Shown in pieces: positions 197 through 28,220 of a DNA stretch of 33,155 nt (its first letter is position 1; the number at the start of each line of letters is the position of its first letter). The notes under the pieces were generated by a model that was not told where the DNA came from, made no database searches, and saw only the letters and a program-made list of their open reading frames with translations. Origin of the DNA: Clostridiales bacterium (GTDB lineage Bacteria; Bacillota; Clostridia; Christensenellales; Pumilibacteraceae); the NCBI GenBank assembly GCA_022508505.1, contig JAFLVC010000017.1:1-33155 (forward strand). Reading direction: 5' to 3'. A program made the translations under genes and the position numbers.

Positions 197-841
197 CTAC
201 CAAACAAACACAGATTTGGCGGCCTCGCCGTTGTCTATCAGGATATCCTGAGCGGTCATCGACTTGTTGACTACAGTAAAAAAGTAGCAAAACTCGGCAA
301 TCTCCTCGGGCGTCGCCCACTTAGGAAGCAGCGTTTGCTCCATTATTCTACCCCACTTTTCGGGATCGCTCATCACGCGGTCGTTGGAGCGGGTGCAAAC
401 GCCGCCCGGCGAAACGCTGTTGACCGTCGCGCCGTACTTTGCGAGGGCGAGAGCCGTGTTTTTCATGTACGCGACGAGCCCGCCCTTGCTCGCCGCATAC
501 TCGGCGAACTCCGCACCCGTCCGCGCGCTCGCCGACGCGACGAACAGAACGCTCTTTATTCCGTCGCGGAAGGCGTACTTTTCGGTTACGCGCATAGCGC
601 CTTTGAGGTTGACTTCGATGTCGCGCCCCGAGTTTTGAACTCCGGCATTGTTTATGAGGATATCCACGCCGTCCACGTCGGGAAGCTCGCCCGTGACGTC
701 GGCGGTCAAGTGGGTGTAGCGGGAATGCGAAACCGTGCCGACCTCTTTGTCTATTCCTATTACTATATGCCCGCACGCCAAAAACTTTTCGGCAATCGCC
801 TTGCCTATTCCGCCGCTCGTTCCCGTTATCAGTACTTTCAT
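197..841 (-). CDS. SDR family NAD(P)-dependent oxidoreductase
   Basis: This 214-residue protein is a classical short-chain dehydrogenase/reductase. The nucleotide-binding motif TGTSGGIG is at residues 6-13, NNAG at 64-67, the structural Asn at about 78, and the catalytic Ser (103 or 105), Tyr115 and Lys119 (YAASK) are in place. It is shorter than the usual 240-250 residues, mainly through compact loops, but every catalytic element is present. The substrate cannot be told from sequence. The start is supported by GGAGG about 10 bases upstream. The ATG overlaps the stop codon of the upstream transporter gene (ATGA, 838-841), so the two are probably translationally coupled. A hairpin terminator follows the gene. 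Confidence 0.88.
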   Translation of the reverse strand: MKVLITGTSGGIGKAIAEKFLACGHIVIGIDKEVGTVSHSRYTHLTADVTGELPDVDGVDILINNAGVQNSGRDIEVNLKGAMRVTEKYAFRDGIKSVLFVASASARTGAEFAEYAASKGGLVAYMKNTALALAKYGATVNSVSPGGVCTRSNDRVMSDPEKWGRIMEQTLLPKWATPEEIAEFCYFFTVVNKSMTAQDILIDNGEAAKSVFVW

Positions 842-1653
842 TGCGCGTTTTCCTCCGTCAGTAATGGTGTTTGTCGTGTTTCCGCTTCTTCGTCCGCGAC
901 ATTTTCACGATTTTTCGCAGCGACGAACTCGAAATACTCTTCGCCCACGCCGTCGCGCTTCCAATTGCGGCAGATTTTATAGCCTATCGGCGAAAAGACG
1001 ACCTCGAACAGCAGCTCGGCTACCATTCCTGTCGCCGCGCACGTCACGCATTGAAGCGGCGACCAGCCGAAAAAGAAGTAGCTGACTATAAACGCGAATA
1101 CGAGGTTGTCGGTAAACTGCGCGACTGCCGTCGAAACGTACGCGCGCGTAAAGTACGCCGCCCCGCCGTCGGGGTTCTTTTTGAACAGCTTGCCTATGCC
1201 GTAGTTGAGAAAGTTGTTGACGACTGCCGAAGCGAGAAACGCTACGGTGCTACCCAAGAGCACGTACCAAGTGCCGCCGAACGTGCCGTCGAGCGCCCTG
1301 TTTATGTCGCCGCCGTTCGAGAACGCAAACGACTCCCCCCAGCTCCCCGGGATGAGACTGCCGAGAAAGAACAGCAAGCACAGCACGAGGTTGAACATAA
1401 TGGCGAGCACCGAGATCTCTGTCGCCGCCTTGGGTCCGTAGTGCTTTGTCAGGACGTCCATGGTGAGGAATGCAAACCAGGAAACGATTATGCCGCAGTC
1501 GAGCGCGAGCCAATCGACGGGAATGTTTATGCTCTTGTTTGCGAGAAGGTTCATAGCAAAGACCGACACCGAAAATATGACGACGGCGACGGCGGGCACA
1601 GACCTAAGCAATATTTTCAATTCGGCAAGCTCGCGCTTGATCTTTTGTATCAC
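838..1653 (-). CDS. VUT/YhhQ family transporter, probable queuosine precursor transporter
   Basis: This integral membrane protein has about six hydrophobic segments and matches the VUT (YhhQ) family, whose studied members import queuosine precursors. Family-like features include the internal stretch VLTKHYGPKAA and the conserved polar helix around VNNFLNYGIGK. I chose a GTG start at 1653 (271 residues) because GGAG lies six bases before it. The longer reading frame starts at a TTG at 1665 whose own codons contain that GGAG, leaving it without a ribosome binding site. The last 40 residues are a charged cytoplasmic tail. The gene lies 120 bp downstream of tRNA-Leu on the same strand with no obvious terminator between them, so read-through from the tRNA promoter is possible. 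The substrate assignment is by family only. Confidence 0.82.
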   Translation of the reverse strand: MIQKIKRELAELKILLRSVPAVAVVIFSVSVFAMNLLANKSINIPVDWLALDCGIIVSWFAFLTMDVLTKHYGPKAATEISVLAIMFNLVLCLLFFLGSLIPGSWGESFAFSNGGDINRALDGTFGGTWYVLLGSTVAFLASAVVNNFLNYGIGKLFKKNPDGGAAYFTRAYVSTAVAQFTDNLVFAFIVSYFFFGWSPLQCVTCAATGMVAELLFEVVFSPIGYKICRNWKRDGVGEEYFEFVAAKNRENVADEEAETRQTPLLTEENAQ

Positions 1654-1773
1654 GGTTTTCTCCAAACAAAAATGACGTAATTTTTCAACACGCCATCCGT
1701 GCGCTCATCGCGCGTCCATAGTTTTGTTTACAGACAGGATGGTTTCGAACTGTCTACTGTATTTCATAAATAA

Positions 1774-1858
1774 TGGTGCGGAGGACGAGACTTGAACTCG
1801 TACGGTGTTACCCACAGGCTTCTGAGACCTGCGCGTCTGCCAATTTCGCCACCCCCGC
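1774..1858 (-). tRNA. tRNA-Leu (anticodon CAG)
   Basis: Read on the minus strand, a 7-bp acceptor stem (GCGGGGG with CCTCCGC, one G-T pair), a D arm with the GCG/CGC stem, an anticodon stem CAGGT/GCCTG with loop CTCAGAA, a long variable arm (class II) and a T arm ACGAG-TTCAAGT-CTCGT fold into a complete tRNA. The anticodon is CAG, reading CUG leucine codons. The 3' CCA is encoded (1774-1776). Confidence 0.96.
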
Positions 1859-1873
1859 AAAGGAAGCTTGATA

Positions 1874-1902
1874 ATTATACTATACGTTAAGCGGTTTGTC
1901 AA
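1874..1902 (-). promoter_or_regulatory. Consensus sigma-A promoter of tRNA-Leu
   Basis: TTGACA (1897-1902) and TATAAT (1874-1879) are both perfect matches with a 17-bp spacer. The predicted start is about 8 bases before the mature 5' end of tRNA-Leu at 1858. Confidence 0.88.
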
Positions 1903-1964
1903 GCGCATGACGGCATATTCGCGCTTTCCGTATGCTCGGTATTTAATATAAAAGGCGAAAAGGA

Positions 1965-1993
1965 TTGACATTTCACGCCGTATATATTATAAT
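1965..1993 (+). promoter_or_regulatory. Consensus sigma-A promoter of the activase gene
   Basis: A perfect TTGACA (1965-1970) and a perfect TATAAT (1988-1993) are separated by 17 bp, giving a start near 2000 and a leader of about 39 bases before the ATG at 2039. It diverges from the tRNA-Leu promoter. Confidence 0.88.
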
Positions 1994-2038
1994 GATAAGT
2001 GCGTTTTCGCAAGCAACACACTTTTCGGATAATGTAAG

Positions 2039-7697
<5,659 letters not shown>

Positions 7698-10128: not shown

Positions 10129-10164
10129 ACAAAAGCCCTCGCAAGCGAGGGCTTTTGCTTTTTG
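10129..10164. terminator. Bidirectional terminator between mntP and pyrG
   Basis: A near-perfect stem (10130-10142 with 10145-10157; core AGCCCTCGC/GCGAGGGCT) is flanked by A and T runs on both sides. It serves the convergent genes mntP (plus) and pyrG (minus). Confidence 0.9.
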
Positions 10165-10166
10165 TA

Positions 10167-11756
10167 TTATTCGGTTTTCTGTGCGTCCTTTTCCCTGCTT
10201 ATGACCTTGATAAACTCGGCGAACAGCGGGTGCGTCGAAAGCAGGCGCGAGCGGTACTCGGGGTTATACACCGTGCCGATATAGAACTTGTCGGTCGGCA
10301 CCTCGAACGCTTCGGGTACGCCCGTCGGCGAGTGCGCCGAGAACACCATGCCGTTCTTTAACAGCATTTGCTCGAACTTAGCGTTAATATCAAAACGGTG
10401 ACGGTGACGCTCTTTGACGGACGGAACACCGTAAATCTTGCTGAGGTGCGTGCCCGCCGTAATCATTGTCGGGAAGGAACCTTTTTTGAGCATTCTCGGC
10501 TCGGTATAGCACACTACGGGATACGGGTTATCCTCGTCAAACTCTTGCGAGTGCGCGCCCACCATTGTACACACGTTTCGCGCGTACTCGACGACGCCCG
10601 CTTCCGCGCCGAGGCCTATCATGAGGCACGGAATGTCGTTCTCGCGCGCGTACTTGCACGCCGCGACCTTGCCCTCAAAGCCGCGCACGCCAAAGCCGGG
10701 CGCGATGATTATTCCGTCGTAGCCGCTCAGCTTTTCGGCGTTCTCTTCCATTTCGGCGCTCGGAACGAGCGTAATGTCGACGGCGATGTTCTTGAGTAGT
10801 CCCGCTGTCGTAACCGCGTCGGTGATCGACCTGTATGCGGTCGCACGCTCGGTGTACTTGCCGACGATGGCGATTTTGAGCTTGTTCTCCGCCTTTTCCG
10901 CCTTTTCGGCTTTTTTGCACATGCTCTCCCACTCGGCGAGGTTGCTTTCTCGCTCCTCGAGCTTGAGCTTTTTGAGCGCTATGCCCGAAAAGTTCTGTTC
11001 CTGAAGCTTGATGGGAACCATATACAGATTGTTGGTCGTGATGCTCTCTATTATGCAGCTGCGCTCTACGTTGCAGAACATGGAAAGCTTTTTCTTAGCG
11101 CTCTCGTCGAGCGGATAGTCGGACCGACACACGATTATGTCGGGCTGTATGCCGATATTTTGAAGCTCTTTTACAGAGTTTTGCGTTGGTTTGGTCTTAT
11201 GCTCGCCGCTCATTTCGATAAGCGGAACGTATGTTACGTGTATGTAAAGCGCATTACCCTTGCCGAGCTCGCCGCGGCACTGCCTTATCGCCTCTAAGTA
11301 CGGGTGGTTTTCTATATCGCCGACAACGCCGCCTATCTCGCAGACGACGACGTCCGTTTCGGGCTTGTCCAACCGATAAAGCGTTCTCTTTATCTCGTCG
11401 GTGATGTGCGGAACGACCTGAACGGACTCGCCGTCATAGCCACCCTCGCGCTCGCGGTTGATGACAGAAAGGTATATCTTACCGCTCGTGATATTGCTGT
11501 TTTCGGTGAGGTCCTGATCGAGAAAGCGCTCGTAATGACCGAGCACGAGGTCGCCCTCGCCGCCGTCGTCGGTGACAAACACTTCGCCGTGCTGATACGG
11601 ACTCAAATACAGCGAGTCTACGTTGAAGTACGGATCGAACTTGACGATATCCACCGTGTAGCCCTGCGATTTGATGAGCATTGCAAGGCTCGCCGCCGTT
11701 ATGCCTTTTCCGAGGCCGGACACGACGCCGCCTGTTACAAATACAAACTTTGACAT
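10167..11756 (-). CDS. pyrG: CTP synthase with inactive-looking glutaminase domain
   Basis: The 529-residue protein has the CTP synthase layout. In the N-terminal synthetase domain the ATP loop SGLGKG (13-18), SPYQHGEVFVTDDG (52-65), LGHYERF (72-78) and EIGGVVGDIE (140-149) are preserved. The C-terminal class I glutaminase domain is not. Family members have a nucleophile Cys in GICLGMQ, but here the aligned segment reads MIGLGAE, with Gly381 in the Cys position. The catalytic His of the HPE motif is Asn498 (NPE, 498-500), and the oxyanion strand has lost one Gly (PGFGVRG, 353-359). The reading frame is intact, so this is not decay by frameshift. I infer ammonia-dependent CTP synthesis or a regulatory role. 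AAAAGGAG supports the start. It lies 27 bp downstream of the RnlA-like gene. Confidence 0.9.
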   Translation of the reverse strand: MSKFVFVTGGVVSGLGKGITAASLAMLIKSQGYTVDIVKFDPYFNVDSLYLSPYQHGEVFVTDDGGEGDLVLGHYERFLDQDLTENSNITSGKIYLSVINREREGGYDGESVQVVPHITDEIKRTLYRLDKPETDVVVCEIGGVVGDIENHPYLEAIRQCRGELGKGNALYIHVTYVPLIEMSGEHKTKPTQNSVKELQNIGIQPDIIVCRSDYPLDESAKKKLSMFCNVERSCIIESITTNNLYMVPIKLQEQNFSGIALKKLKLEERESNLAEWESMCKKAEKAEKAENKLKIAIVGKYTERATAYRSITDAVTTAGLLKNIAVDITLVPSAEMEENAEKLSGYDGIIIAPGFGVRGFEGKVAACKYARENDIPCLMIGLGAEAGVVEYARNVCTMVGAHSQEFDEDNPYPVVCYTEPRMLKKGSFPTMITAGTHLSKIYGVPSVKERHRHRFDINAKFEQMLLKNGMVFSAHSPTGVPEAFEVPTDKFYIGTVYNPEYRSRLLSTHPLFAEFIKVISREKDAQKTE

Positions 11757-11783: not shown

Positions 11784-13529
11784 TTACTTGCCGTCAGGCG
11801 ATATCGAAAAGCCGATCTCTTTCAGCTTTTTCGCGTTGTACTCCACTACGTTCAACAAGTTTTCAAAGACGTTCTTTGCGACGTTGCGGTCGGGCATGCC
11901 GCGCGACTTGCTGTCATCCGTGTTGTCGGAGTGCAAATAGAAGTTGCGCTGCGAAAAATATTCTGTGTACAACGCGACCATGACCTCGCAATACACGACG
12001 CTGCCTATCCGCTGACGGTAACCTTTTTTGAGCACGTATTTGCCGCTGTCGTCCTTGTCGTACGCCTGACCTATCATCTTGACCTTGATGCCCTCGGCGC
12101 GCTGAAGGTCGAATACAAACCGCTCCAAGCCCCTGTACGGCGGCACCAATAGCCCCGAATAGTCGGAAAGCGTCAGATTGTCCTGCGAAAAGTCGTGCAG
12201 TCCGTACGAAAAGTCTATCCTCGACTGTTCGGACAAAAACCCGTACGCAGTCGGAAGCCGCTTTTTGAGCTTGTTGTCGACGTCGGACACCTTGGTCTTT
12301 GACGTCGCGTCGGAGGACTCGATGTAGTTTTCGAGCGCCGACGAGTAATCGCTTTCGCGGCTGACCTGCGCCTGTATCTCGCCGAAGATGTTTGTCTTGC
12401 GGCCCTGAAGCTGCAACGTCATCTTTTTGGTCGCGTACCTCAGGTACACCTTTGCGCCCGACGCGTCGGACACTATGAACATCTTGACTTCCTGCGACGT
12501 CCCGGCAAACTCCGTGCCGTCGTTTTTGACCGTATAGCCGTCCGACTTAAGCCGCTTTAGCATGGCATTAAGCTTTTCTTCGGGAAAGTTCTTTACCGAA
12601 TAGCCGTTTTTGTATTCGAGCGTCGGCGCGGGCTTTGCTTCCTCTTTTTCGAGCGTCGGCGGCTGTATAGAGGGTTCCGCCTGCACTTCCTTGCGCGGGC
12701 GTCCGCGCTTGCGCTTTTGAGGCGCTTCCGTCGGTTGCTGACTGACGGTTGTTGCATGCGACGCGATATCGGCGTAAAGCCCCGTGCCGCTCTTTTTGAG
12801 CACGGGCAATGTTTTGCCGCTGTCCTCGTCGTCGTCGCCGAACGATATCGTCGCCTTTTTCGGTCTGCCCAAAGGCCGCTTCGACAGCGGCTGTGATACG
12901 TTTCTTTCGGCTTGTTGTTTTTCAAAGTACTCGTCGACCGAAGCCGCCTTTTGCGGCGATTGCCGCGCGTTCACCACTCTGCCGTAGTCGGTCTGTCTCG
13001 GCGGTTCGGTTCTGTCGCTTGAACCCTGCTCGGTGCGACGGAATGAGCGCTGCGGCGGGAAAATCTCGTCAGTCGAAATTTCCAATCCCTTTGACGTCGC
13101 AAGCACCGTCGTCGGCTTTATATTCGGGCGGCGCTTTATCGCGTCGGGCGACATGAACAGCTTTGCGCGCGTGTCGGGCTGCCCGCCCTCGACCGATATA
13201 GATACGTTTGTTGTCGGCTTGCGTTCGTGCTTTACCGTGTTTTGCGCGGGTACGGTAGAACGCTTGACCGTGCGCGTGCCCGGCGAAAAGAGGCTTAGAA
13301 GCTCGTCCGCAAACGCTTCGGGCGCGGTTATGGATATGACGCTCGCCGACGTGTCGTACACCACCGCAATCTTGCTGTCACCGCGCGAAAAGGTGTACCT
13401 GTCGTAATGCGAGCGCATGTCCGCTTTGACCGTCGCTCGTTCCGTATATACCGCCTTATCGATCTTACCGATAAACGTCTCCGCGTCCTGCTGCGAGCAC
13501 GGCGATATATTATACCTTATATTGTGCAT
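11784..13529 (-). CDS. RnlA-like HEPN ribonuclease-type protein with AT-hook linker
   Basis: The 581-residue protein resembles RnlA/RNase LS toxins. The C-terminal third (about 425-575) is an all-helical HEPN-like domain with the signature R528-x4-H533 (RNFYLH) and a Glu at 469 in LERFVF, where RnlA has a conserved Glu. Residues about 315-395 match the RnlA beta domain, including the strand around LQLQGRKTNIFGE. A similar pattern at about 5-85 (KIAVVYDTSASVISITA) suggests a duplicated copy. Between them lies a ~220-residue low-complexity linker with two AT-hook-like motifs, LGRPKK (220-225) and RGRPRK (275-280), suggesting DNA binding. Known RnlA is an mRNA endonuclease neutralised by RnlB. 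No RnlB or other small antitoxin is adjacent, and pyrG follows by 27 bp. The start is supported by GAGGAA. The family call is from motifs, not a search. Confidence 0.65.
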   Translation of the reverse strand: MHNIRYNISPCSQQDAETFIGKIDKAVYTERATVKADMRSHYDRYTFSRGDSKIAVVYDTSASVISITAPEAFADELLSLFSPGTRTVKRSTVPAQNTVKHERKPTTNVSISVEGGQPDTRAKLFMSPDAIKRRPNIKPTTVLATSKGLEISTDEIFPPQRSFRRTEQGSSDRTEPPRQTDYGRVVNARQSPQKAASVDEYFEKQQAERNVSQPLSKRPLGRPKKATISFGDDDEDSGKTLPVLKKSGTGLYADIASHATTVSQQPTEAPQKRKRGRPRKEVQAEPSIQPPTLEKEEAKPAPTLEYKNGYSVKNFPEEKLNAMLKRLKSDGYTVKNDGTEFAGTSQEVKMFIVSDASGAKVYLRYATKKMTLQLQGRKTNIFGEIQAQVSRESDYSSALENYIESSDATSKTKVSDVDNKLKKRLPTAYGFLSEQSRIDFSYGLHDFSQDNLTLSDYSGLLVPPYRGLERFVFDLQRAEGIKVKMIGQAYDKDDSGKYVLKKGYRQRIGSVVYCEVMVALYTEYFSQRNFYLHSDNTDDSKSRGMPDRNVAKNVFENLLNVVEYNAKKLKEIGFSISPDGK

Positions 13530-13746
13530 TAAATTTCCTCACATTTTCATTTCACAAAAATTTTTATCCGACGACATGCGCGTTGCAGTAAAAATTTTAT
13601 ACGGTTTACTTTATGTCAATCGCAGTATTTTCTATGCAATAACCCAATTTCATTGGGGCAATCTTTATTTGATTGCCTTGCATAAATCTTTAATAACTTA
13701 GATATTAAACCCCGTGGCAAGTCCAGATCCCGCGCGTTCTGCGCGC

Positions 13747-13819: not shown

Positions 13820-13860
13820 CCTCGAAATAAATTATAAGCGGCGCTGAGGCCGCTTATAAC
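13820..13860 (-). terminator. Terminator-like hairpin after the surface protein gene
   Basis: An 11-bp stem TTATAAGCGGC (13832-13842) pairs with 13849-13859 around a GCTGAG loop, 20 bp past the stop codon. On the minus strand it is followed by ATTTATTTC, an imperfect T-tract. Confidence 0.65.
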
Positions 13861-13879
13861 CTATATTCGAAGTTTTGTC

Positions 13880-16800
13880 TTATTTCTTGACTTTGCGGAA
13901 CCTTACAACGTAGACGATTACGCCCGCGAGAAGGACAACCGCGATGATGATGAGTACCGTGGACAGTGTCGTGAACGTCGTAGGCGTGCTCGTGCCGCTT
14001 GCCGAAACGGTGACGTAAACGATGTACGGATCTTCGTTGCCGACAGAGTCTTTTACCGTGTAGACTACCTTGTAGGTGCCCGACTTGGAAAGCTTGATTG
14101 TCGATCCGTTGTTCTTCTTGTCTGCGTAGCTGTTGTACGAGCCGCTAACGGTAGAGCCCGAAACTTCCGCGCCCGACGGATCGTAGAGCTTCTTGGTTAT
14201 CGTGGCCGTGCTCTTGTCCTTTTCCAAGGAGTCGCCGACGAGCTTGATTTCGCCGTAGGTGAAGGTGTCGCCCTGGCTCTTTCTGCCAGAGGTACCGCCG
14301 CTTACCGTGAACTCGGGAGCTTCTACGTCGCCGATGTTGACGGTGTAGGTCGCGGACGCTTCGCCTGCGTCGGCGCGGGTCGCCGTAACTCTTATCGTGT
14401 AAACGCCGTCCTTCTTGCCCTCGAACTTGTACTTGTTAGTGCCTTCGATCTTCTCGGTCTTGACCGGATCGCCGCTGACGGTGACTTCGATCTTGACGTT
14501 TGCAGGACCGTTAGAGGAATATGCGATTACCGAGGGAATCTCGACGTAGACCTTGTTGTCGTCCGTGCTCTTTTTCGCATACTTGGGCATGACGCCTTGA
14601 ACTTCGATAACCGGCTTTTCGCTGTCGGTGATGCTGAAGCTGTAGTTGGCGCCGTTGACGCCGTCGGACAGGAAGTCCTCGCCGAGGTCGCTGTAGTCGT
14701 TGACCTTTTCCGCGTCGACAAAGCCGTCGGTTATCGAGTAGCTGCTCTGCGACTTGGCGGTGAACTCGTTGCCCATGAGGCTGTACGTCCAGCCTCTTAT
14801 CTTGCGAGCGTGATAGTATTCGTGGTCGTTCTCCGCACCGGCGAAGCTGTCGTCTGTCGCGTGGAGAGTGTACTTGACGTTGACGTTGCCGACCGAGTCG
14901 GGAGCAATCTCGGCAGCGGGCTTAACGGTGCCGCCGCCCGACTGAGCCTTCTCGACCTGGAACTTATAGACGTACACCGAGTTGATGTCGTTTACGTCGA
15001 ACACGCGGATTGTGAGGTAGTAGTACTCTTCTTCCGCAGTCTCCTTGGTCGGTCTGAAGCCGATGTTTTGAACGTAAATCTTTGCAGTGTCTTCGGTGTA
15101 GGTGGTGTAGGTCTCCAGCCAAGTTTCGATAGCCGCGCCTTCGGCGTTGACGACCGAAATCTCGAAGCCGGTGTACTTGCGCATATCGTAGGTGGTGTCA
15201 ATCGTGAAGCCGCCTGCGTTGACCTCTTGTCCGGTCAAAATCGTTTCGCCGGACTTCCAGCTTGTGACGCCGTCCTCGACAGACTTGGTCTTGAACTCTA
15301 TATTGCCGTGATAGGTGTAGGACTTTTCCTCGGACTTTTCGATTACCTTGACAACGTCCGAGCTTTCGTTGTAGTTGTCGATCGTGTAAGCGCCTTCCGC
15401 CTTCTCGGAGTTGAGCGCAACGTTGCCGACAGCGTCGGTGGCGGTCACGCAGAAGTACATATTGCCGACGAGCTTGAGCTCTTTTGCGTAGTCCTTATCC
15501 TTGTCGATGATGAGGTACATGCCGTCGTCGCGCGTCTCGATATCGGCTGCCTCGCCGCCCTTGACGACGATATAGCGGCCGCCGTCCTTATCCTCGAGAC
15601 CGTTGTCGGAGTAAATCCTGTACTCGACGTGAATGGTGGAGGACTCGGAGTCCTGAGCGACTGCCGACGGAATGTTGAACGTCGTGTCCGCAGTCGAGAT
15701 ATAATCGGGAACGTTGATGTCGTCAATCGTCGGCGCGTTCTCGTCCTTGTACTCGGACTGAAGGTCGATGGTGAACGTGCGCGTCGAACGGTTGCCCGCG
15801 GCGTCCTGTGCGCGGTAGTAAACGGTGTACGTGCCCGCCTTGTCTACGGGGTCGCCGTTCTTGTCCTTTCTGTCGTACTTGGTGAAGTCGAACTTGAACG
15901 GGGTGTCGGAATACTGGCTGAACGTCTGCGTCTTGCCTTCGTCGTACACTTCGTTGGAAGCGTTGCAGTCTGTGGTCTTAGACTCTTTATCTTCGTCCTC
16001 GTCGCCCTTCTCTTGCTCCGCGGGCTTTGCGAGCACGTTTCTGAATACCAATATGTCGCGCGAATAGTCGGAGTCGGTTATGCGGACGTACAGCGAGATG
16101 AGGTCTTTGTCTTCTTCCTCGCCTTCCTCGACTTCTTTAGCCTTCATATGGTCCTTGTTGTCTACAAGGAAAGGAATGGGTATTTCAATCGCCTTGGCAT
16201 CGTTTTCTTCGATCTCGCCCTCGGCGTTGGTTACGGTAAGACCCCACTTCGCGGGAATCTTCCAATCGTCAATCTCTTGGAATACGGGAGCGACCGAGTC
16301 GCCTGCCGTCATAGTCCATGACTTGGACGACGAAACGTTGCCTGCGTCGTCTTTTGCGACGTACTTGACGTGATACTGTCCGGCGATGAGCGGATAGAAC
16401 GTCATGACGTCCTTATTGTCGAACGCAACCGCGGGATACTCGTCATTCTTGAGCTTGTCCGCGTCTTGATATGCGTACCCGTAACGGTCGATATCGACGA
16501 CCTTGACGGCGTCGCCGTTGGGATCGGTTACGGTTATCTCTACGAGCGGGTTCGTGTCGTAGTCGTCGCTGACGGTCGCAATGGGAAGAGTGACCGCGCG
16601 CTTGACCGAAATATTGGAAGTGATGCCCGAAACGGTGAGCGACGGGGCGCGCTTATCCTCAAACGACGACTGCGCATTGACCTCGAAGGTCTCGCTGAAC
16701 CATTTTGTGCCGTTGTCCTCGATCTGAGCCGAGTAAGTCAAGTACAGCTTGCCGCTCTGCTTGACCTCGACGTCGTCGCCGAACTTGTGCTCGTGCTCCT

Positions 16801-17371
16801 CGCCCTCGCCGAGCGAGTCGGTTATCTGCCAATTGACCTTGCCGGGATAGTAGCGAAGAATTTTGTTCTCGTCGTAGTACGCGATGTGCGCTTCGGGAAG
16901 TCCCTTAATGCTGTCGCCCGTCTTGATACGAGTGGGAATGCCCGCGCCGTTGTTGTCGACCTTGAGGAAATAATCCTCTTCGAGCGAAACGCTTACGTTA
17001 AACGAATACGCCGCTTTCTCGTCGCCGGACGCCGCATACTTGACAACGTAGTTGCCGACCTGCTTGGCCGCTATCGTGTAGTAGCCTTCGGACGCAGCGC
17101 CGAGCTCTACGTCGGTGCCGTCGGGAGCCGTAACGGTGAGGTCCGCGCCGGACGCCTGCTTGACCTTAAAGGTCTTGCCGTAGTCGGCCTCGGTGGGTAC
17201 CGTCAAGCCGTCGAACACCATCGTATCCGTCTCGACAGTTCTCGCCGAAGGGCTGTCCGCGAACGCACGGTAAGGCATGGAGCACGCCAAGCCGGTGCCG
17301 AGAAGCGCCGCGCTGACCGATAGGGCTGTGAATGCGAGCCCGGTTTTTCTGATTTTTCCGATCTTTTTCAT
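13880..17371 (-). CDS. Large secreted, membrane-anchored Ig-like surface protein
   Basis: The 1163-residue protein begins with a signal peptide (positively charged start, hydrophobic core to about residue 30, probable cleavage after AFA at 38). It ends with one membrane helix (about 1136-1156) and the tail RFRKVKK, with no LPxTG, so it is membrane-anchored with a short cytoplasmic tail. The body is beta-rich. The pattern A/V-x-D-x-x-GN recurs four times (AKDDAGN, AQDAAGN, ATDAVGN, VKDSVGN), each preceded by a Tyr/Phe-rich strand, as in bacterial Ig-like and cadherin-like extracellular repeats. An acidic stretch lies near residues 410-470. There are no enzymatic motifs; adhesion or a structural role is inference. 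AGGAG lies 12 bases upstream and a perfect promoter at 17420-17448. Confidence 0.8.
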   Translation of the reverse strand: MKKIGKIRKTGLAFTALSVSAALLGTGLACSMPYRAFADSPSARTVETDTMVFDGLTVPTEADYGKTFKVKQASGADLTVTAPDGTDVELGAASEGYYTIAAKQVGNYVVKYAASGDEKAAYSFNVSVSLEEDYFLKVDNNGAGIPTRIKTGDSIKGLPEAHIAYYDENKILRYYPGKVNWQITDSLGEGEEHEHKFGDDVEVKQSGKLYLTYSAQIEDNGTKWFSETFEVNAQSSFEDKRAPSLTVSGITSNISVKRAVTLPIATVSDDYDTNPLVEITVTDPNGDAVKVVDIDRYGYAYQDADKLKNDEYPAVAFDNKDVMTFYPLIAGQYHVKYVAKDDAGNVSSSKSWTMTAGDSVAPVFQEIDDWKIPAKWGLTVTNAEGEIEENDAKAIEIPIPFLVDNKDHMKAKEVEEGEEEDKDLISLYVRITDSDYSRDILVFRNVLAKPAEQEKGDEDEDKESKTTDCNASNEVYDEGKTQTFSQYSDTPFKFDFTKYDRKDKNGDPVDKAGTYTVYYRAQDAAGNRSTRTFTIDLQSEYKDENAPTIDDINVPDYISTADTTFNIPSAVAQDSESSTIHVEYRIYSDNGLEDKDGGRYIVVKGGEAADIETRDDGMYLIIDKDKDYAKELKLVGNMYFCVTATDAVGNVALNSEKAEGAYTIDNYNESSDVVKVIEKSEEKSYTYHGNIEFKTKSVEDGVTSWKSGETILTGQEVNAGGFTIDTTYDMRKYTGFEISVVNAEGAAIETWLETYTTYTEDTAKIYVQNIGFRPTKETAEEEYYYLTIRVFDVNDINSVYVYKFQVEKAQSGGGTVKPAAEIAPDSVGNVNVKYTLHATDDSFAGAENDHEYYHARKIRGWTYSLMGNEFTAKSQSSYSITDGFVDAEKVNDYSDLGEDFLSDGVNGANYSFSITDSEKPVIEVQGVMPKYAKKSTDDNKVYVEIPSVIAYSSNGPANVKIEVTVSGDPVKTEKIEGTNKYKFEGKKDGVYTIRVTATRADAGEASATYTVNIGDVEAPEFTVSGGTSGRKSQGDTFTYGEIKLVGDSLEKDKSTATITKKLYDPSGAEVSGSTVSGSYNSYADKKNNGSTIKLSKSGTYKVVYTVKDSVGNEDPYIVYVTVSASGTSTPTTFTTLSTVLIIIAVVLLAGVIVYVVRFRKVKK

Positions 17372-20385: not shown

Positions 20386-20398
20386 TATATTGTTAGTA

Positions 20399-20648
20399 TA
20401 TCACAAGCAAAAATGCTTGCTTGCAATGGCATTTTTGCGCCGTGATTCAATACCGCAGTCGCGCGAATTGCGCGAGGCGCATTTGCGCCACGATTGCAAC
20501 GCAATCGTAACTGCGAATATTATATCACAAGTAAAATATGCTTGCTTGCAATAGCATTTTTGCGCCGTGATTCAATACCGCAGTCGCGCGAATTGCGCGA
20601 GGCGCATTTGCGCCACGATTGCAACGCAATCGTAACTGCGAATATTAT
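20399..20648. repeat. Two tandem copies of a ~124-bp hairpin-rich repeat
   Basis: Two near-identical units start at 20399 and 20523, differing by a few bases and a one-base indel near the left end. Each contains nested inverted repeats: TCGCGC/GCGCGA, GGCGCA/TGCGCC and ACGATTGC/GCAATCGT. The first unit also has GCAAAAATGC paired with GCATTTTTGC. A shared 13-mer recurs at about 13797-13812. The unit looks like a REP/BIME-type element. Short open frames through it are not credible genes. Confidence 0.85.
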
Positions 20649-20773
20649 AACACGAATTAAAATACAGTGCAAATATTTTCTCGGTCAAAAAGAAAATGTA
20701 CTCACACAAGTTGAAAATCCCCATACACTGAAAATAGGTAAGCGCTCACCGTACAAAAGAAATACAGAGCGGA

Positions 20774-28083: not shown

Positions 28084-28220
28084 GCTCCCCCTTATTAAGG
28101 GAAAACATCACATCCCCTCAGTCTGCCGCAAGCGGCAGCCAGCTCCCCTTATTAAGGGAAAACATCACATCCCCTCAGTCTGCCGCAAGCGGCAGCCAGC
28201 TCCCCTTATTAAGGGGAGCC
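28084..28220. repeat. Tandem 57-bp palindromic repeat (2.3 copies)
   Basis: Units begin at 28084, 28142 and 28199 (the last partial). Each carries GCTCCCCTTATTAAGGG, an ACATCACATCCCCTCA box and the hairpin CTGCCGC-AA-GCGGCAG. There is no variable spacer, so it is not CRISPR. A further copy with a different hairpin arm lies at 32961-33008. Confidence 0.85.

Follow-up and report, generated by a model that had tools for sequence, protein, structure and literature searches.

An RnlA/LsoA-family HEPN protein without a detectable antitoxin gene, probably a domesticated RNase, in a family of Christensenellales

RnlA (RNase LS) and LsoA of Escherichia coli belong to the type II toxin-antitoxin systems RnlAB and LsoAB. 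RnlA is described as consisting of an N-terminal domain (NTD), an NRD, and a DBD; the E. coli NRD binds both RnlB and RNase HI, the latter being the activating partner of RnlA, and rnlB is reported not to be deletable in cells with RNase HI (PMC5308261). The NTD and NRD of RnlA are described as having a common topology (PMC7180214). Fusions of RNase LS to RNase H or TBP-like domains have been reported, and the TBP-like domain was read as binding RNA-DNA hybrids (PMC3710099). Two further comparisons are relevant here: MazF-mx and EzeT, described as chromosomally kept toxin homologs without a cognate antitoxin gene (PMC4803016), and AbiF/RCd22, in which a HEPN-like protein is described as preceded by an RNA antitoxin (PMC12373285).

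The DNA analyzed here (the window) is a stretch of 33,155 nucleotides from a Clostridiales bacterium of the Pumilibacteraceae. It carries a gene (11784..13529, minus strand, ATG start) for an RnlA/LsoA-family HEPN protein of 581 amino acids, for which no antitoxin partner was found; the gene is present in one copy in its own 1.89 Mb genome and occurs also in Anaerocaecibacter muris CLA-AA-M11 (record L034). The window protein has homologous NRD and DBD/HEPN domains and the R-x2-E and R-x4-H motifs in common with RnlA and LsoA, with an NTD-NRD-DBD order in which the NTD is probable, and its probable TBP-like plus HEPN layout resembles that of the RNase LS fusions. In contrast to RnlAB and LsoAB, no RnlB was found for it, and its gene is core and mostly vertically inherited; unlike RnlA and LsoA, it has a linker at residues 93–304, a putative AT-hook in its genus, and an NTD without a direct match. 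Other families of the order contain rnlB-linked RNase H fusions (L037 and L038) and an RNase HII-family fusion (L060), whereas the window protein lacks any RNase H part. MazF-mx and EzeT are likewise solitary, but the gene described here is conserved in 14 of the 18 genera of one family. Their folds also differ from that of the window protein. A putative structured, RNA-like element lies before the HEPN gene at the window locus, which recalls AbiF/RCd22 as the latter is described (PMC12373285), but the window protein belongs to another HEPN family, no repeats were found, nothing in Rfam matched above a gathering score, and the element is restricted to one genus.

RnlA/LsoA homology and domain layout

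By profile comparison, the C-terminal half of the window protein is homologous to RnlA/LsoA. Single-sequence Pfam matches fell below the cut-offs: RnlA-toxin_DBD (PF19034) matched residues 415–535 with E 6.9e-6 and 26.9 bits, 0.1 bit under the cut-off of 27, and RnlA_toxin matched residues 310–386 with E 0.0012 and 19.4 bits (cut-off 27). A profile of 29 family sequences matched LsoA (PDB: 5hy3) with E 6.3e-12, and the HEPN part alone, also as a family profile, did so with E 1.5e-8; hhalign against three rnlB-linked RnlAs of the same class gave 98.4% and E 4.4e-15. PF19034 matched 29/29 members of the family alignment A1 at E ≤ 0.1; this alignment has 29 rows and omits L016 (a near copy) and L030, both of whose genomes are in the 65-genome set. 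Because the family profiles are stronger than the single-sequence Pfam scores, we regard the homology as settled. The original prediction of an RnlA/HEPN relationship is therefore borne out; it had named, as one possible refutation, profile searches without an RnlA or HEPN match, and the searches produced matches instead. A tblastn search with residues 294–581 recovered one plasmid-encoded RnlA (E 1e-4) from Aliarcobacter, annotated beside RnlB. NCBIfam and PADLOC gave no match for the window protein, and phmmer with the single sequence against the PDB returned chance-level matches only.

The DBD/HEPN domain occupies residues 415–581 (11787..12287, minus strand), as located by PF19034, LsoA 5hy3, and conservation across 65 genomes, and contains R466, E469, R528, and H533. 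YRGLER lies opposite R-x2-E in the LsoA alignment, and RNFYLH lies opposite R-x4-H. The R-x4-H signature at R528–H533 and the conserved glutamate at 469, both of which had been predicted, are present, and all three residues are identical in 65/65 family proteins; position 466 is arginine in 62/65 and lysine in 3/65. The closeness of R528 and H533 in the fold rests on homology to RnlA/LsoA.

An NRD-like beta domain (residues 305–400; 12330..12617, minus strand) was assigned from the sub-cut-off RnlA_toxin match and from hhalign against canonical RnlA (E 1.2e-5, probability 81%). It lies beside the DBD, as the alignment of the 29-sequence profile to LsoA covers chain residues 93–338. The NTD (residues 1–92; 13254..13529, minus strand) is a probable TBP-like copy of the same domain, based on an in-register hhalign match of residues 1–92 to 310–400 (E 1.8e-4, probability 48%). 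Residues 1–92 had no match of their own to Pfam (RnlA_toxin_N), the PDB, or a canonical RnlA profile. Of the RnlA-type beta domain and second copy proposed originally, residues 310–400 match RnlA, and the copy at 1–92 is in register, at a probability of only 48% and with no RnlA match of its own. Two beta domains before the HEPN domain are to be expected because the NTD and NRD of RnlA have the same topology. The architecture, which had been considered new, is in this respect the standard RnlA layout of NTD, NRD, and HEPN; what differs is the long basic linker between the NTD and NRD.

Family-made profiles found the HEPN domain in 65/65 family ORFs and the NTD in 64/65, the remaining ORF being truncated at the edge of its contig. 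At i-E 0.001, the NRD matched in 52/65, one of which (G065) matched on the NTD instead; four more ORFs gave weak matches (0.0014–0.005), and the rest, G041 included, gave none. The NRD is recognizable, then, in about 51/65 ORFs and not in about 14/65, one cut ORF counted. L114 (G048) and L111 (G055), of 342 and 357 codons, have an NTD and a HEPN domain but no recognizable NRD.

The basic, fast-evolving linker (residues 93–304; 12618..13253, minus strand) was delimited by composition, lengths, and dN/dS. Its K+R fraction is 0.14–0.43 across the 64 proteins in which such a stretch is present, one of these stretches being only 14 residues long. Over nine pairs, dN/dS was 0.05–0.46 for the linker compared with 0.046–0.136 for NRD plus DBD, the latter range indicating strong purifying selection. 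NTD and NRD are 212 residues apart in the window protein, 212–314 in its genus, and 20–215 elsewhere (G065 left out), and the genus linker holds the short conserved motifs RxKxFVxPD, STDEIxPPQ, and ISFG. The linker of approximately 220 disordered residues in the original prediction is indeed long, at about 212 residues, and its composition and variability suggest disorder.

Within the linker is a putative AT-hook region, KRKRGRPRK (residues 272–280; 12690..12716, minus strand), identified by Pfam AT_hook and [RK]GRP counts. The Pfam score in the window protein is 15.8 bits, under the cut-off of 17.4, and 13/29 A1 members matched at E ≤ 0.1 (best 3.2e-5). An [RK]GRP hook was present in 18/19 proteins of the window's genus, 13 of which have two copies, and the expectation per shuffled genus linker was 0.006–0.06. 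The hook-less genus member, G004, is from a genome with 7% contamination and has matches on two contigs. No hook was found in the 46 proteins of other family genera, one of which is cut before the linker. By these counts, the predicted AT-hook is a trait of one genus and not of the whole family. A second hook-like motif had been proposed at LGRPKK (220–225) and was rejected because it is not kept in relatives; KRKRGRPRK is conserved in the genus.

Antitoxin search and gene neighborhood

An adjacent rnlB, the defining feature of an RnlAB system, was not found at the window locus, nor was RnlB found in any of the 74 family genomes searched with an RnlB model, its own genome included (0/74). Of six outside genomes that encode an RnlA-type DBD, five were positive with the same model, RnlB lying directly after the RnlA-type domain; this control comprised seven genomes, with its own genome and G091 as the negatives. 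No family-conserved ORF of at least 80 amino acids was found beside the gene except the larger neighbors. The original observation that no small antitoxin gene flanks rnlA thus holds, and it extends to the rest of the genome for rnlB-like genes. As the defining antitoxin was sought and not found, the protein is placed in the RnlA family but not filed as an RnlAB system.

The recurring gene order is coaX, hom, an Ig-like gene, rnlA, and pyrG. The conserved upstream neighbor encodes an Ig-like surface protein (13880..17371, minus strand; Pfam and synteny); in 49/59 readable flanks, with tails read by eye, no long upstream ORF lies closer to rnlA. The remaining ten flanks belong to genus g7 and carry an insert between the Ig-like gene and rnlA; the insert genes, which we take by eye to be glycerol-3-phosphate-dehydrogenase-type and DUF1667-like, were rejected as antitoxin candidates on this resemblance. 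The Ig-like protein keeps its position across the family despite poor sequence conservation (median 28.4% identity, 32 genomes), and its C-terminal membrane-like tail looks alike in most flanks. The Ig-like gene is followed by a terminator-like inverted repeat (13827..13864, minus strand) that was not flagged by a consensus scan; a similar stem follows it in all 17 flanks of the genus that were folded.

Downstream, pyrG (CTP synthase, named by eye from its translation; 10167..11756, minus strand) lies 27 nt from rnlA and is the next called gene in 38/65 loci by naive gene calls. A scan of the interval between rnlA and pyrG found no terminator-like site on the minus strand, and a terminator-like symmetrical stem follows pyrG, between it and the convergent MntP gene (10130..10157, no strand assigned). 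From this arrangement, co-transcription of rnlA and pyrG is likely. Elsewhere in the window, a tandem array of approximately 2.1 copies of a 125-base unit lies at 20397–20664, beyond a 208-amino-acid ORF, and a perfect 57-base tandem repeat of 2.2 copies lies at 28088–28215.

Searches of the same genome found RNases HI, HII, Y, and J, and a role for the protein as stand-in for a missing RNase was rejected for this reason. G014 and G015 keep the RnlA-type protein, yet no RNase HI was found in either, so RNase HI is apparently not obligate as a partner. Other arrangements were seen outside the family. In L060 (G091; 631–2544, minus strand), a HEPN domain of the RnlA type, scoring under its Pfam cut-off, is followed at the C terminus by a domain of the RNase HII family (PF01351), and RnlB was not found in that genome. 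L037 and L038 are RnlA-type proteins that carry a Cauli_VI/RNase H part at the N terminus (by Pfam for L038 and by eye for L037), and rnlB follows each of them directly; in L037, the RNase H and HEPN parts are in two overlapping frames.

Distribution, inheritance, and a putative upstream element

The rnlA-type gene was found in 65/74 family genomes, representing 14/18 genera, and in 42/43 good genomes (completeness of 90% or more and contamination of 5% or less, its own genome included). The nine genomes without it, among them one good genome and both g18 genomes, were also negative in a profile search, so the gene is not strictly required. All 65 family ORFs contain a HEPN domain and no internal stop, and one (G041) ends at a contig edge; stops inside ten gene matches (G003, G020, G021, G023, G026, G038, G045, G057, G060, and G062) are the natural C-terminal end. 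With the low dN/dS, these ORFs rule out a pseudogene or relic. In an even draw of the order, PF19034 matched 26/297 genomes, 21 of this family and 5 elsewhere; PF19034 counts are lower bounds, as the model missed the window's own genome at E ≤ 0.001. Profile A3, in a 391-genome draw of the class, found only the window's own genome and G598; A3 is narrow and misses canonical RnlAs found by PF19034 (G074 and G205), so this low count is uninformative on RnlA at large.

The gene tree requires 14 genus-label changes for 14 genera (minimum 13), with g9 and g15 not forming single clades, and points to mostly vertical inheritance. It has 64 rows, the truncated G041 being left out, and uses the last 285 residues, which are other sequence in members without a recognizable NRD; several of these members (G004, G048, G055, and G068) are among the long branches. 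Outside the genus, the HEPN domain has a median identity of 59.0% to the window protein (46 genomes), about as conserved as the housekeeping neighbor proteins: in the same comparison, CoaX is at 61.6% (22 genomes), Hom at 55.7% (16), and PyrG at 51.9% (20), some PyrG values possibly being lowered by naive gene calls. The Ig-like protein is at the 28.4% given above. Searches at E ≤ 0.01 gave no phage match and a single plasmid match, the annotated Aliarcobacter RnlA-RnlB pair; seven further plasmid matches at E ≤ 10 were chance, with E 2 or more. A mobile or plasmid-borne toxin-antitoxin module was rejected on these grounds, and family-wide presence, recurring synteny, a mostly vertical tree, and housekeeping-like conservation likewise do not fit a roaming module.

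Between the terminator-like stem and rnlA, a putative three-helix element (13633..13684, minus strand) is drawn with P1 TATGCAA/TTGCATA, P2, and P3 CCAAT-GAA-ATTGG, on the basis of genus covariation and a covariance model. It is also placed upstream of rnlA in L031, L032, L034, and L069–L082; in the genus figure, P2 varies in sequence and P3 reads (C)CAAT-NNN-ATTG(G). In the alignment of 11 genus members, 94.9% of P2/P3 cells were paired and 27 cells were double-changed, each value reached in 0/500 shuffles, and two weaker measures, pairs with a double change and further pair types, were reached in 17/500 and 216/500. P1 pairing within 17 genomes exceeded that of swapped flanks (0/2000), with hand-chosen P2 anchors. 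The 11 seeds (alignment A7) exclude G000 and G019, which MAFFT had misaligned in A6, G009 and G014, whose P1 could not be placed clearly next to an insert, and also G012 and G016, which have a long nested insert in P2. Across 65 loci (1.02 Mb), the strong matches of the model were the 11 seeds together with G009 and G014, and the weak ones were G012 and G016; every one of these lies upstream of rnlA. Neither G000 nor G019 was found at E ≤ 10. The 46 loci outside the genus, where flanks can be 66–90 nt, gave no significant match (best E 0.049, L118). The window copy ranked first with filters off but was non-significant (11.8 bits, E 0.28), so the element in the window rests on the drawn figure. 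No match above an Rfam gathering score and no repeat array at the rnlA locus were found. The element could act as an RNA leader or, alternatively, as a site in the DNA.

A possible core RNase and its alternatives

The reading we favor, and consider reasonably probable, is a domesticated RnlA/LsoA-family HEPN endoribonuclease encoded by a core gene and needing no antitoxin; such an enzyme would probably act on RNA near DNA. Family-wide conservation, the absence of RnlB, a mostly vertical tree, and purifying selection all support the solitary, repurposed RNase of the original prediction. The family ancestor would have held an RnlA-type enzyme that lacked rnlB or had lost it, and the enzyme would then have been kept as a core gene in a fixed chromosomal neighborhood. 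As the active site is kept, it may work as a HEPN dimer that cuts RNA, with an activity weak or spatially confined enough that an antitoxin is not needed. Action near DNA is suggested by the TBP-like domains, through the link to hybrids made in PMC3710099, and by the basic linker and the hook: together, the TBP-like domains and linker, with the putative AT-hook in this genus, would hold the enzyme on DNA or RNA-DNA hybrids. There it could take part in RNA processing or turnover at the nucleoid, whether of nascent transcripts, primers, or R-loops, the substrate being a guess. The binding step is the weak one because the NTD has no direct RnlA match, the NRD is unrecognizable in about 14/65 ORFs, and the hook is confined to one genus. 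That the NRD is unrecognizable in some members weakens hybrid binding and slightly helps independence from RnlB; since the NRD binds RnlB and RNase HI in E. coli, a domain decaying in some lineages would be in keeping with such independence. With RNases HI, HII, Y, and J in the same genome, no RNase gap accounts for the need for this enzyme.

The protein could instead be a self-restrained single-chain toxin or defense effector, in which the NTD and linker would act in cis to block the HEPN domain until it is released by stress or an infecting phage. The RnlA family is described as a phage-defense toxin in E. coli (PMC5308261), the single-chain zeta toxin EzeT is a described solitary toxin with a cis-antitoxin domain (PMC4803016), and both the retention of the NTD in all but the cut ORF and the conserved short motifs of the genus linker would be compatible with internal control. 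We nevertheless think this unlikely: the gene is a core gene among housekeeping neighbors, with housekeeping-like conservation and a mostly vertical tree, and an NTD-to-NRD distance ranging from 20 to 314 residues would be odd for a precise inhibitor.

Control by RNA is less probable still. The upstream element would be transcribed and would restrain the protein or be cut by it, as in AbiF/RCd22 or type III systems, where the RNA antitoxin is usually repeated, and the precedent in PMC12373285, the P2/P3 covariation (0/500 shuffles), the P1 pairing (0/2000), and the restriction of strong matches to sites upstream of rnlA within 1.02 Mb of flanks are all consistent with this. Against it, the two weaker covariation measures were reached in 17/500 and 216/500 shuffles, no significant match was found at 46 loci outside the genus, the window copy has E 0.28, and the locus has neither a repeat array nor an Rfam match over a gathering score; a terminator-like stem precedes the element, and a DNA site is equally possible. 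A combined scheme, in which a phage-defense toxin became a DNA-tethered housekeeping RNase across the family and a structured RNA leader replaced the protein antitoxin in this genus, seems to us similarly improbable.

An antitoxin that is unlinked and not RnlB-like is very unlikely: a distant antitoxin, MrpC, has been reported for MazF-mx of Myxococcus, a claim described as contested (PMC4803016), but such a partner would need to be kept in as many genomes as the toxin, and the partner search covered PF15933 and the neighbors. A non-catalytic, RNA-binding HEPN protein can be given almost no weight, because the active-site positions are kept across the family, although some HEPN domains are described as having lost catalysis (PMC3710099).

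Among the open-licence matches listed, no paper describes, by its title or the opening of its abstract, an antitoxin-free core RnlA-type RNase, which is not proof of novelty. For the domesticated RNase that we favor, the E. coli system provides a comparison: rnlB is reported not to be deletable there in the presence of RNase HI (PMC5308261), yet this family keeps an RnlA-type active site without a detectable RnlB. The same fold occurs with and without an antitoxin inside one order, which makes the question of how a toxin becomes a normal enzyme directly testable. The family-wide position of the gene and the missing antidote gene suggest a former toxin that has turned into an ordinary enzyme of the cell.
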